Assembly: GCA_023252275.1 (NCBI GenBank)
Contig: JAHHGO010000004.1
Coordinates: 1 to 35,403 of the forward strand
Source: Alphaproteobacteria bacterium
Lineage (GTDB): Bacteria > Pseudomonadota > Alphaproteobacteria > UBA11222
Reading direction: 5' to 3'
DNA: 35,403 nt
In this document: piece after piece, positions 5,504-28,088 of the stretch
Numbering within the stretch: position 1 is the first letter of the stretch
Layout: every line of letters begins with the position of its first letter
Translations under genes and position numbers: made by a program
Notes under the pieces: model-generated
Databases searched by the model: none
What the model was told of the DNA's origin: nothing
The model's input: only the letters and a program-made list of their open reading frames with translations

Positions 5504-5579
5504 TGGCGTCCCCTAGGGGACTCGAACCCCTGTTTTCGCCGTGAGAGGGCGACGTCCTGGGCCACTAGACGAAGGGGAC
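5504..5579 (-). tRNA. tRNA-Glu (anticodon CTC)
   Basis: Reverse complement GTCCCCTTCGTCTAGTGGCCCAGGACGTCGCCCTCTCACGGCGAAAACAGGGGTTCGAGTCCCCTAGGGGACGCCA; cloverleaf stems, loop CTCTCAC, GTTCGAGTC T-arm, encoded CCA. Confidence 0.96.
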
Positions 5580-21234: not shown

Positions 21235-24200
21235 ATGCGCGTGAAGCGTCACTATACGAAAGCAGGCCAGTCTCCCTACGCCAACATCGCGTTTCGCACG
21301 GCGAATAGCGAGATTCGCAATCCCGACGGATCGACGGTGTTCCAATTGCAGGGCATCAGCGTGCCTGCAAGCTGGAGTCAGGTAGCTTGTGACGTTCTGG
21401 CGCAGAAATATTTTCGCAAGGCCGGCGTACCGGTGGAACTGCTTCCCGTCGAGGAAGCGGATGTGCCAGCCTGGTTGTGGCGCAATGTGCCGGACGAGGT
21501 GGCGCTTCAGCGGATCGATCCCACCAAGCGCTTTGGACCCGAAATGCAGGCCGTGCAGGTATTTGACCGGATGGCGGGCGCCTGGACCTATTGGGGCTGG
21601 AAGGGCGGCTATTTCGACAGTCAGGACGATGCGCGCGCCTTTTTCGATGAAATGCGCTACATGCTGGCCAACCAGATGTGCGCCCCTAACAGCCCGCAAT
21701 GGTTCAATACCGGCCTGCATTGGGCGTATGGCATTGATGGGCCGGCGCAGGGCCATTTCTTTGTCGACCATCAGAGCGGCGAAGTGCAGCGCTCCAGCAG
21801 CGCCTATGAGCGCCCCCAGCCGCATGCCTGTTTCATTCAGAGCGTCAGCGATGATCTGGTGAACGAGGGTGGCATTATGGATTTATGGGTGCGCGAAGCG
21901 CGCCTGTTCAAATATGGCTCCGGCACCGGAACCAATTTTTCCGCCCTGCGCGGCGAAAATGAATCGCTGTCCGGCGGCGGCAAATCCTCCGGTCTGATGA
22001 GCTTTCTGCGCATTGGCGATCGCGCCGCGGGGGCCATCAAATCCGGCGGCACCACAAGGCGCGCCGCCAAAATGGTGATCGTGGATGTGGATCACCCTGA
22101 CATTGAAACCTTTATCGACTGGAAAATGCTCGAGGAGCAGAAAGTCGCCGCTCTGGTTTCCGGTTCAAAGCTGCTTGAAAAACATCTCAACGCCGTCATG
22201 CGCGCCTGCATTAATTGCAAAAGTGACGGTGATGAATGTTTCGATGCGAAAAAGAACCCGGCCCTGCGGCAGGAAATTCGCAACGCCCGCGCCATGATGG
22301 TGCCGGAAAATTATATTCAGCGCGCGGTGCAGCTTGCCCGGCAGGGATATAAGCGAATTGATTTCCCGACCTTCGACACTGACTGGGATTCCGAAGCCTA
22401 TCTGACTGTCTCCGGGCAAAACTCCAATAATTCCGTGCGGGTAACAGACGAGTTTCTGAAAGCGGTTGAACTGGACAAGGAATGGACATTAACCCGGCGC
22501 ATTGACGGCGTCCCGACCAAGACCCTGCCCGCCCGCAAATTATGGGATCGCATTGGCGAGGCCGCCTGGGCGTCCGCCGATCCGGGGCTGCAATTTCACA
22601 CCACCATCAATGATTGGCACACCTGCCCCAAAAGCGGGCCAATCCGGGCATCCAACCCCTGTTCGGAATATATGTTCCTGGATGATACAGCGTGCAATCT
22701 GGCCTCGCTTAATCTGATGCGGTTCCAGGATGGCGTGGACGCGTTTGATGTGGCGGGCTTCTCTCACGCCGTGGCGCTGTGGACCATAGTGCTGGAAATT
22801 TCGGTCATGATGGCGCAGTTCCCGTCCAAGCGTATTGCTGAACTCTCCTATAAATATCGCACGCTTGGACTGGGCTTTGCCAATCTCGGCGGTCTGCTGA
22901 TGGGCATGGGGCTTGGCTATGACAGCGCCGCGGGTCGCGCCATTGCCGGCGGCATTTCCGCCCTTATGACCGGCATCGCCTATGCCACCTCGGCCGAGAT
23001 GGCGCGCGAGCTGGGCGCATTCCCGGGCTATGAGCGCAATGCCGAAGCAATGTTGCAGGTGATGCGCAATCATCAGCGCGCAGCGCATGGTGAAAATCAC
23101 GGCTATGAAGGGCTGCATACGCCGCCCGTACCGCTCGACGCGGCCAGTTGCCCGGACACAGCACTGATCGCAGCGGCCAAAGCCGCCTGGAACCGGGCCG
23201 TGATTCTGGGCAAGGCGCATGGCTATCGCAATGCGCAGGCCAGCGTGATTGCGCCGACCGGCACGATCGGCCTGGTGATGGATTGCGATACGACTGGAAT
23301 CGAGCCGGATTTCGCGCTGGTCAAATTCAAGAAGCTGGCCGGTGGCGGTTATTTCAAGATCATCAATCAGACCGTGCCGCCTGCACTGCAGGTGCTGGGT
23401 TATAGCCAGCAGCAGATCGAGACCATTATCGATTATGCGGTTGGCCGCGGCACCCTGGCCGGCGCCCCCGGCATTAATCACGAATCACTGCGCGCGCGCG
23501 GTTTTGGACAGACGCAATTGGACATCGTTGAAGCGGGACTCGAATCGGCCTTTGACATCAAGTTCGTGTTCAACAAATGGTCGCTGGGCGAGGATTTCCT
23601 GACCGGTGTACTGGGTATCAGCAAGGAACTGTCCGAGGATGTGAATTTCAATCTGCTGGGCGAGCTTGGCTTTACCCAGGCCGAGATCGAAGCGGCCAAT
23701 CTCTATTGCTGCGGCACGATGACGCTGGAAGGCGCGCCGGGGCTGAAGAACGAACATCTGCCGGTGTTTGATTGCGCCAATCCTTGCGGGCGCATCGGCA
23801 AGCGCTATCTGAGCGTGGACAGCCATATTGAAATGATGGCCGCCTGCCAGCCCTTCATTTCGGGCGCCATCTCCAAAACCATCAACATGCCGAATGACGC
23901 CACGATTGAAGAATGCTCGCGCGCCTATATGAAATCCTGGCGGCTGGGCATCAAGGCCAACGCGCTGTATCGCGACGGATCAAAACTCAGCCAGCCGCTG
24001 AACGCGCAATTGCTCGACCAGGATGTGGAAACCGCGCAGGAGACCGTGCAGACGGTTATCGAGGCGCCCGCAGCCGCGCGTGCGCAACTGGTCGCCGAAC
24101 AGATGGCGCACCATACGATGGAAAAAGCCGCCGCGCGACGGCGGCTTCCGCAACGCCGCAAGGGCTATACCCAGAAGGCGATTGTCGGCGGACACAAGGT

Positions 24201-24891
24201 TTATTTGCGCACCGGCGAATATGAAGATGGCAAGCTGGGTGAAATTTTCATCGACATGCACAAGGAAGGCGCGGCCTTTCGCAGCCTGATGAATAATTAC
24301 GCCATCGCCATTTCCATTGGCCTGCAGTATGGCGTGCCGCTGGAGGAATTTGTCGACGCCTTCACCTTTACCCGCTTTGAACCGGCGGGAATGGTGCAGG
24401 GCAATGACGTGATCAAAAGCGCCACCTCGATTGTCGATTATGTGTTCCGCGAACTGGCCATTTCCTATCTGGGGCGCGGGGATCTGGCGCATGTCGCACC
24501 CGACGAATATCATTTCGACGCGATGGGTACGGGCATTGAAGGGGTAACCGGGCAGGTCCAGAAGGTTACCAGCACTGGTTTTGTGCGCAGCCGTCTGGTC
24601 GTGCTGCCCGGGGGGGCCGCCAGCCGGGCGGACGACGCGGCGCAGCAGGAATTGCAGGCCAGCCTGCTCAGCGAAATGCGGACCGGCACCGGCCCCATGG
24701 TCAGCAGCGAAAATTTTGCCATAAGCGCCACGATCAGCAGCGGCGGCAAGACGCAGACCAGCCTTCTGATGGAGGCGCAGGTAAAAGGTTATGAGGGTGA
24801 AAGTTGCGGCGAATGCGGGAATTTCACGCTGGTTCGCAACGGTACCTGTATGAAGTGCAACACATGTGGAGCGACCAATGGTTGCTCGTAA
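21235..24891 (+). CDS. nrdJ: Vitamin B12-dependent (class II) ribonucleoside-diphosphate reductase
   Basis: 1218 aa; [74 protein letters not shown]-terminal Cys-rich [28 protein letters not shown]. Confidence 0.96.
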
Positions 24892-24980: not shown

Positions 24981-25017
24981 GGGGCCGCCTGGCATTGCCG
25001 TGACGGCCCCCTTTTTT
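24981..25017 (+). terminator. Intrinsic terminator
   Basis: GGGGCCG...CGGCCCC followed by CTTTTTT. Confidence 0.85.
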
Positions 25018-25061: not shown

Positions 25062-26276
25062 ATGTTAGACGGCGCCCCGCAAAGCTCAAAACTTCAGGTC
25101 TTCATCGCGCGTGATGATGAGGAACGGCGCCGTATTTACCGCTTCCGGTACCGGGTCAAGGTCGAAGAGCTGGACGCCAAACCGCCGCACGCCAATCATC
25201 GCACCAAAGAAATCGTCGATCCGCTCGACAAATCCGCAATGCATATTTACGTCGCCCAATCGGCCGGCCATGATCTGGTGGCGTCGGCGCGGATTAATGT
25301 CAGGCTGGCCGAGAACAATCTTTCCGATATTACCAGTCTGGAAGGGTTTGGCCCGTTTCGTGAATTCGGCGTGCAGTCTTTGTCGCTTAGCGGCCAGCTC
25401 GTGATTTCGCCCAAATGGGCCAGCAGCCAGGCGGCGTCATTGGCGCTGAGCGCCATCTATAAACTTGCCCGCCAGAATGACAGCCTGTTTGATTTCACCC
25501 AATGCGCACCGGCCCTGCTGCCGCTCTATCAAAGGCTGGGCTATCGTCAGTTCCGCGAAAATTTCATGGATGACGCGCTGGGCTATCAGGTGCCGCTGGT
25601 GATGGTGACACAGGATTTTCAGCATCTGGCCAAGGTTAAATCACCGCTGACTCAGATCGCGCGCGGCATGAACAATCCACCGGAAACCGGCAACTGGTTC
25701 TCGCGCGCCTATCCGGATTATGCCCATGCGCCGGTCGAGGCCGCGATGGCGGATGATGAATTCTGGCATTTTCTGGCGCGCAAACTGAACCAGACGCCAA
25801 ACGCCGGGATACCGCTGCTGGAGGGGCTGGGCTATCAGGAAGCCATGGCCTTTATTCGTGCGGGATCGGTGCTGAATTGCCGCAAGAATATGCCGATCGT
25901 CAAGGCCGGCCAGATGGGCAAGGAAATGTTTGTGATCCTGTCCGGTGCGGTCAAGGTTCTGGCGGGACCGGACAAAGCCGAAGTCGCGCGGCTTAATCGC
26001 GGCGATATATTTGGCGAGCTGGCCTATCTGTCCGAAGTGCCGCGCACCGCTGATGTCGTAACGACAGAAGATACCGAACTGCTGGTTCTAAGCCAGGACA
26101 TTGTCCGCCGCATTATGGACAAAATGCCGGCCATCGCCGCGCGTGTTTTGTTCAACCTGTCGCTGATCCTGTGCAGCCGGGTGGGCCAATCCACCCGAGA
26201 TCTGGTCACCGCCACATCCCCGCAGCAGCCAGCCGGAATTCTGCCGGGGCTTGTTCCGCTAACCTCCAAACCATAG
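25062..26276 (+). CDS. FeeM/N-acyl-amino-acid-synthase-like GNAT domain fused to a C-terminal cyclic-nucleotide-binding domain
   Basis: 404 aa; N-term VFIARDDEERRRIYRFRYRVKVEEL...LVISPKWASSQAASLALSAIYKLA...CAPALLPLYQRLGYRQFRENFMDDALGYQVPLVMV; C-term phosphate-binding-cassette-like GDIFGELAYLSEVPRTADVVTTEDTELLVLS. Confidence 0.85.
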   Translation: MLDGAPQSSKLQVFIARDDEERRRIYRFRYRVKVEELDAKPPHANHRTKEIVDPLDKSAMHIYVAQSAGHDLVASARINVRLAENNLSDITSLEGFGPFREFGVQSLSLSGQLVISPKWASSQAASLALSAIYKLARQNDSLFDFTQCAPALLPLYQRLGYRQFRENFMDDALGYQVPLVMVTQDFQHLAKVKSPLTQIARGMNNPPETGNWFSRAYPDYAHAPVEAAMADDEFWHFLARKLNQTPNAGIPLLEGLGYQEAMAFIRAGSVLNCRKNMPIVKAGQMGKEMFVILSGAVKVLAGPDKAEVARLNRGDIFGELAYLSEVPRTADVVTTEDTELLVLSQDIVRRIMDKMPAIAARVLFNLSLILCSRVGQSTRDLVTATSPQQPAGILPGLVPLTSKP

Positions 26277-26279
26277 AAA

Positions 26280-28088
26280 TCAATTGCGGCTTGTTTTGGG
26301 CGGCGGAACGACGCGGATATGCAATTCGCGTAACTGTTCCGGGGAAACCTCCGCTGGCGCATTCATCAGTAAATCCTGCGCCTGCTGGTTCATCGGGAAC
26401 AGAATGACCTCACGGATATTTGGCTCATCGGCCAGCAGCATGACGATGCGGTCGACACCCGGCGCAATACCGCCATGCGGCGGCGCGCCAAATTTGAAGG
26501 CCGAAATCATTCCGCCAAACCGCTTGTTCACCGTGGCGGTGTCATATCCTGCTATTTCGAACGCCCTGTACATGATGTCAGGGCGGTGGTTGCGCACCGC
26601 GCCCGATGACAGCTCCGTGCCATTACAGACAATGTCATATTGAAAAGCATTGATGCTGAGGGGATCGGCTGTGTCCAGCGCCTCCAGCCCGCCCTGCGGC
26701 ATGGAAAACGGATTATGCGCGAAATCGATCTTGCCGGTCTTTTCGTCAAGCTCGAACATCGGAAAATCAACGATCCAGCAAAATCTGAAAACATCCTTTT
26801 CACAAATTTCAAGCTGCTCGCCGATGCGCATGCGTGCCGCGCCCGCCAGCGCCGCTGCCTGAATTGGCTTGTCGCAGGCAAAGAAAATGGCGTCACCTGC
26901 CTTTGCCCCGGCACGCGCCGCCATCTGCGCCAGAATATCGCCCGGAATGAATTTGGCGATCGGGCCGCGGCCGACCAGCGCGCCCGCCTCTTCTTCCAGA
27001 ATGACGTAACCCAGCCCCGGCGCGCCCATATCCGTGCGCGCCCATTCATTTAGCTTGTCAAAGAAACTGCGCGGTTGCGCCGCAGCACCTGGTGCGGGAA
27101 TGGCGCGCACCACGCCGCCTGAGGCGATGGGTTTCTTGAAGGCGTTGAACGTAACCACGTCGAGTGCAAAAAATTCCGTCAGGTCACAGATTTCAATCGG
27201 GTTGCGCAGATCCGGCTTGTCGCTGCCATATTTCAGCATCGCCTCGGAATAGGGAATGCGCGGGAACGGACGCGGCGGCACTTTACGGCCATCGGCAAAT
27301 TCCTCGAACACGCCATGCAGCACCGGCTCGACCGCCATGAAGATATCTTCCTGGGTGACGAACGACATTTCAATATCAAGCTGATAAAACTCTCCGGGTG
27401 AACGGTCGGCGCGCGCGTCTTCGTCGCGAAAACAGGGCGCGATCTGGAAATAGCGATCAAAGCCCGCCACCATGATGAGCTGTTTGAATTGCTGCGGGGC
27501 CTGTGGAAGCGCATAGAACTGCCCCGGATGCATGCGGCTGGGAACCAGAAAGTCGCGCGCGCCTTCAGGGCTGGAGGCGGTCAGGATCGGGGTCTGAAAC
27601 TCGGTAAAGCCCTGCCCTTCCATGCGCCGCCGCAGGGAGGCGATCACCTTGCTGCGCAGCATGATATTGCGGTGCAGTTTTTCGCGGCGTAAATCCAGAA
27701 AGCGGTTCCGCAAACGAATTTCTTCCGGATAGTTCTGCTCGCCAAATACCGGCATGGGCAATTCCTGCGCCTGCGAGATCAGGGCGTATTCCCGGATACT
27801 GATTTCCACGGCGCCTGTTGGCAGATTGGCGTTGACCGTATCCGCGGCGCGCGCCACGACGCTGCCGGTCAGGGTGATCACCCATTCCGGGCGGACCTGC
27901 TCAAGGGCGGCAAAAACCGGTGAGGACGGGTCCAGCACGCATTGCGTCAGGCCATAATGATCCCGCAGATCGATGAAAATAAGCCCGCCATGATCGCGCT
28001 TGCGATGAACCCAGCCAGACAGGCGCACCGTGCTGCCCACATGTTCCGGACGCAGTTCACCACAGGTATGAGTACGATATAAATGCAT
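26280..28088 (-). CDS. aspS: Aspartate--tRNA ligase (bacterial type; probably Asp/Asn non-discriminating)
   Basis: 602 aa; [118 protein letters not shown]. Confidence 0.97.

Follow-up and report, generated by a model that had tools for sequence, protein, structure and literature searches.

A putative cyclic-nucleotide-gated acyltransferase of Alphaproteobacteria that joins a FeeM-like domain to a cyclic nucleotide-binding domain and lacks the usual catalytic acid

The stretch of alphaproteobacterial DNA analysed here (contig JAHHGO010000004.1; 35,403 nucleotides, referred to as the window) encodes a 404-residue protein made up of a FeeM-like GNAT domain, a linker module and a C-terminal cyclic nucleotide-binding (CNB) domain. 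The open reading frame (ORF) occupies positions 25062–26276 and starts with ATG; it and all features of the gene described below are on the forward strand. Reading of the ORF together with Pfam matches and relatives bore out the coordinates, length and domain order given in an earlier note on this DNA, and the three motifs quoted there are all found in the protein. The gene is present as a single copy in its genome, where three weaker matches elsewhere cover the CNB part only.

The GNAT domain, approximately residues 10–185 (25089–25616), resembles FeeM and the acyl-homoserine lactone (AHL) synthases. When its profile was compared with solved structures, the top match was the AHL synthase 3p2f (E 0.0014), and in the profile alignment Arg29, Asp56 and Arg77 coincide with an Arg, Asp and Arg of that enzyme; the N-domain of one relative (L034) matches the 4-coumaroyl-homoserine lactone synthase 6wn0. 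Across alignment A4, which contains 29 full-length relatives, Pfam matched CNB in 29 of 29, FeeM (PF21926) in 16 and Acetyltransf_5 in 15, with several of the FeeM matches lying above that model's cut-off (35.8–46.6 bits versus 27). The structure-profile matches and the relatives above the FeeM cut-off mark the N-domain as FeeM/AHL-synthase-like. The autoinducer synthase model PF00765 had no match in the window protein and one, weak, among the 29 relatives (E 0.039). Superfamily positions Arg29, Gly160, Arg162, Pro178, Asp185 and Ser194 are invariant in the 29-member alignment.

A conserved inter-domain module of approximately residues 186–255 (25617–25826), recognizable in the same alignment by the motifs S-P, W-F, F-W and L-L-x-G-L, connects the GNAT domain with the CNB domain. 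The latter, including its C-helix, extends over approximately residues 256–380 (25827–26201) and is matched by PF00027 (cNMP_binding) at residues 273–354 with E 5e-18 and 65.3 bits (cut-off 27.5). Its phosphate-binding cassette, FGELAYLSEVPRTADV (residues 317–332; 26010–26057), contains Glu319 and Arg328, each of which is conserved in 28 of the 29 sequences, so that the intact cassette claimed in the earlier note is indeed there; a few divergent relatives (L043) have an altered one. In CNB domains in general, a Thr beside the cassette Arg is in keeping with either cAMP or cGMP as ligand, and because Thr329, which adjoins Arg328, fits both, the sequence does not call one ligand over the other. 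Class III cyclases are matched four times in this genome and three to six times in each member of its order (6/6 genomes), so a ligand should be available. Retention of the Glu and Arg, together with cyclases in every genome of the order, makes cyclic-nucleotide control well supported. Just 24 residues remain after the CNB domain, and they contain no helix-turn-helix or other Pfam match, in agreement with what the earlier note had stated; the C-terminal helix-turn-helix of CRP/FNR transcription factors is thus missing, and direct control of the enzyme half would be the natural reading. With a FeeM-like GNAT domain, a CNB domain, an intact cassette and no helix-turn-helix, the note's proposal of allosteric rather than transcriptional control remains the best one.

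Each of the six genomes available from the small alphaproteobacterial order to which the window belongs has the gene, with 53–82% identity between members over the N-terminal 239 residues. The domain-order search proposed in the earlier note found that the arrangement recurs: an N-domain profile matched in 26 of 385 sampled alphaproteobacterial genomes, 25 of which encode a protein of the GNAT–CNB type, a count that includes one frameshifted copy. This copy, in a near relative, the Baikal-deep-G66 alphaproteobacterial metagenome-assembled genome (L011:8001-9214), has its frameshift near residue 251, through either an assembly error or real decay. Ratios of nonsynonymous to synonymous substitution (dN/dS) among order members are 0.05–0.26 in both main domains, with dS near saturation in several pairs. 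Conservation in the order, class-wide recurrence of the domain order and low dN/dS together indicate that the gene is more than a product of chance. In one relative the GNAT–CNB gene is tandemly duplicated (L054:1631-4189, minus strand).

Outside the class, the best matches examined from a phylum-wide draw of 399 genomes had no C-terminal CNB domain. A FeeM-family search of 399 genomes of one non-alphaproteobacterial order identified two FeeM–CNB proteins (L217 and L218, in genomes G1092 and G1064 of one genus), which are 406–422 residues long, have about 90 extra residues after the CNB domain and are candidates for the NasP type discussed below; their C-terminal extension resembles a CRP-type tail. 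A protein with CNB first and FeeM second (L078:1444-2499, minus strand; 352 residues) was found in a single genome among the 121 sampled from its family and, owing to this rarity, is not used as strong evidence. In two further proteins (L221 and L228) the FeeM-like domain precedes a large one that, by eye, resembles a class V aminotransferase. A search of plasmids returned matches to the CNB half only, and a search of phages returned none. In the tree, the CNB-fused proteins and their nearest relatives lie apart from canonical FeeM-type proteins with weak support (77/87), and one supported group (97/88) holds 26 of the 29 alphaproteobacterial proteins; long branches make the positions of L042, L078 and L075–L077 unsure.

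The gene sits between nrdJ, encoding a class II ribonucleotide reductase (21235–24891, forward strand), and the convergent aspS (26280–28088, minus strand), both assigned by Pfam and synteny. The neighbourhood proved to be conserved when checked as the earlier note had suggested: in 14 of 28 loci, of which eight belong to genomes outside the order, nrdJ directly precedes the gene in the same orientation, usually with a convergent aspS downstream. As nrdJ adjoins aspS in four sampled genomes that lack the gene, we take the shared gene order as a sign of a chromosomal slot rather than of a functional link; that the slot recurs suggests that the gene was inherited vertically and lost in places, or was inserted at a single site. 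Co-transcription with nrdJ is thought unlikely, because a terminator-like GC hairpin followed by six T (24981–25017, forward strand; fold z −2.35) lies between the two genes. A connection to exosortase, known for some N-acyl amino acid synthases, was unsupported, since the exosortase of this genome is on another contig and only three of the six order members have one. Elsewhere in the window, a tRNA gene (5507–5579, minus strand) is the sole Rfam match. In one relative the GNAT–CNB gene is part of a tight run with genes for an ABC1 kinase, a CNB protein and an MFS transporter (L060:6131-10395), and in another a PF14518 haem-oxygenase-like iron-containing redox enzyme is encoded directly upstream (L041:1038-2830, minus strand); these neighbours hint at small-molecule chemistry in those relatives, not in the window.

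The reading that we favour, to which we give an even chance, is that the protein is a soluble cyclic-nucleotide-gated acyltransferase, in which the CNB domain switches a FeeM-like GNAT that acylates a small amine. The cell's class III cyclases would make cAMP or cGMP, either of which could be bound by the C-terminal CNB domain; binding would switch the N-terminal GNAT domain by way of the conserved inter-domain module. The GNAT domain would then move an acyl group, probably long-chain and presumably supplied by acyl carrier protein (acyl-ACP), onto what is likely to be a small amine, with catalysis perhaps dependent on Asp144 of strand β5. Gating by cyclic nucleoside monophosphates (cNMPs) is likely by analogy to NasP, and acyltransferase activity is probable. 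The two domains, the intact cassette, the cyclases in the genome and a class-wide domain order under purifying selection are direct observations; further support comes from L217 and L218 in a non-alphaproteobacterial order, from the CNB-first L078 and from the NasP precedent. A more far-reaching version, in which a distinct, vertically kept branch has moved its catalytic acid from β4 to β5 and cAMP or cGMP directly controls the making of its acylated product, would give Alphaproteobacteria a lipid signal or effector system gated by a second messenger; this version is tentative and rather unlikely.

Several observations weigh against a gated acyltransferase. The Acetyltransf_5 match of the window protein, at residues 28–127, has E 3.6e-4 and 21.6 bits, slightly below the cut-off of 22.4, and in the Pfam search the protein itself does not reach E 1 with the FeeM model. 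AlphaFold2 models of the full protein and of its N-terminal part, built with one homologue as the alignment, had mean predicted local distance difference test (pLDDT) values of 36 and 38 and were discarded. No neighbouring gene within the window hints at a product. The catalytic acid of the family is also missing. Of 34 canonical FeeM-type proteins, 32 have an acidic residue in β4 three positions before a conserved Arg; none of the 32 CNB-fused proteins has one there (the 29 alphaproteobacterial GNAT–CNB proteins, L078, L217 and L218). The position corresponds to Glu95 of FeeM, Glu103 of Nas354 and Leu109 of the window protein (codon 25386–25388). Glu103 is essential in Nas354, where the Ala mutant is inactive (PMC4897644). 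The nearest relatives without a CNB domain, L075–L077, likewise have no acid at this position, so that its loss characterizes the branch and does not result from the fusion.

In predicted β5, Asp is found at residue 144 or 147 in 25 of the 29 relatives. Among 26 canonical sequences that were tabulated, none has Asp at either position and two have Glu at 147. The β5 Asp may replace the missing acid, with Asp144 (codon 25491–25493) as the candidate base in the window protein. The earlier note's identification of an acyl-amino-acid synthase does not hold as such: although the label is plausible, a defining active-site feature is missing, since Leu109 occupies the place of the characteristic acid and no CNB-fused relative has an acidic residue there. 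For the same reason, an N-acyl amino acid is no more than a candidate product.

Loss of the β4 acid throughout the branch would also suit a non-catalytic sensor, whose FeeM-like domain binds acyl-ACP or acyl-CoA without transfer and which acts on a partner by integrating lipid state with the level of cyclic nucleotide. Against this, many superfamily positions are invariant and the β5 Asp is common, which suggests a working site, and the window shows no obvious gene for a partner; we regard such a sensor as unlikely. It is also improbable that the protein is a cNMP-controlled protein-lysine acyltransferase, similar to mycobacterial Pat with its domains reversed. GNAT and CNB do occur together in Pat, and the CNB half gives a weak match to the Pat model NF058543, but that match (25.9 bits, with the cut-off at 460) is confined to residues 279–363 in the CNB part, the GNAT half is like FeeM and the AHL synthases and unlike Pat, and the domain order is opposite.

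Still more doubtful is a cNMP-controlled aminolipid acyltransferase that resembles OlsB and makes a lyso-ornithine-type lipid. Acetyltransf_5 is a common superfamily for both, and the OlsB ornithine acyltransferase model is weakly matched by the window protein (23.1 bits, far short of the NCBIfam cut-off of 350) and by 18 of 29 relatives at E < 0.001; however, the same genome has a separate, strongly matching Acetyltransf_5 gene of OlsB type (G000:C55:16429-16758; E 2e-33) that keeps the ELSR catalytic motif, the Glu of which is missing from the window protein. Not every CNB-fold domain binds cNMPs, and the altered cassettes of a few divergent relatives would be in line with a solely structural or protein-docking role, but the canonical cassette here, its Glu and Arg conserved almost throughout, and the cyclases of every order genome make this a very improbable explanation.

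In Alphaproteobacteria, the role known for cyclic nucleotides is mostly that of a ligand for CRP-type transcription factors. A recurrent enzyme under their direct control, with an acyl product, would link the cyclases to lipid-derived metabolites. The missing catalytic acid leaves three options, namely another base, another acceptor or a sensor role.

Among known systems, mycobacterial Pat (Rv0998 type) has CNB and GNAT in one protein and is cAMP-regulated; its CNB domain comes first and its GNAT is a protein-lysine acetyltransferase, whereas the window protein has the reverse order. The AHL synthases (for example 3p2f and 6wn0) provide the best solved-structure profile match, 3p2f, with conserved Arg, Asp and Arg aligned, but the Glu of their E-x-S-R-F motif is missing from the window protein, which leaves PF00765 unmatched and has the CNB fusion in addition. 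FeeM (PDB 2G0B) has a homologous GNAT domain, as indicated by relatives above the Pfam cut-off and by the shared positions of Arg29, Asp56 and Arg77; it possesses the β4 catalytic Glu/Asp, in contrast to the window protein, which lacks the acid and carries an added C-terminal CNB domain.

The regulatory idea proposed here is shared with NasP (ABB76600), reportedly described by Clardy & Brady in 2007 (J Bacteriol 189:6487) as a cAMP-activated N-acyl amino acid synthase. Later papers that cite it state that cAMP activates NasP directly (PMC4897644) and that NasP acylates phenylalanine (PMC5643525). Going by these descriptions of NasP, the domain content of the window protein would fit the NasP type; NasP comes from a beta-proteobacterium, whereas the window protein is alphaproteobacterial, and the nearest candidates for its type in the sample, L217 and L218, continue for about 90 residues past the CNB domain. 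Among the papers searched, none mentioned an N-acyl amino acid synthase together with a cyclic nucleotide-binding domain. Nas343 and Nas354, as described in PMC4897644, follow the same plan of an N-acyltransferase domain, a linker of 60–80 residues and a C-terminal second-messenger domain, which is PilZ, for cyclic di-GMP, where the window protein has CNB; Nas354 retains its essential Glu103, to which the window protein has no equivalent acid. Other FeeM proteins in the sample, 436–465 residues long (L157, L209 and L211–L215), are likely to be of the Nas354 type, judged by a C-terminal PilZ-like motif only, and keep the catalytic Glu where it was read. Since cAMP activation is reported for NasP, a cyclic-nucleotide-gated FeeM-like acyltransferase is a known kind of enzyme. 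What is new is the widespread alphaproteobacterial version, which differs from that known kind in three respects: the catalytic acid is missing, the proteins form a separate branch outside the canonical FeeM group, and a conserved module lies between the two domains.
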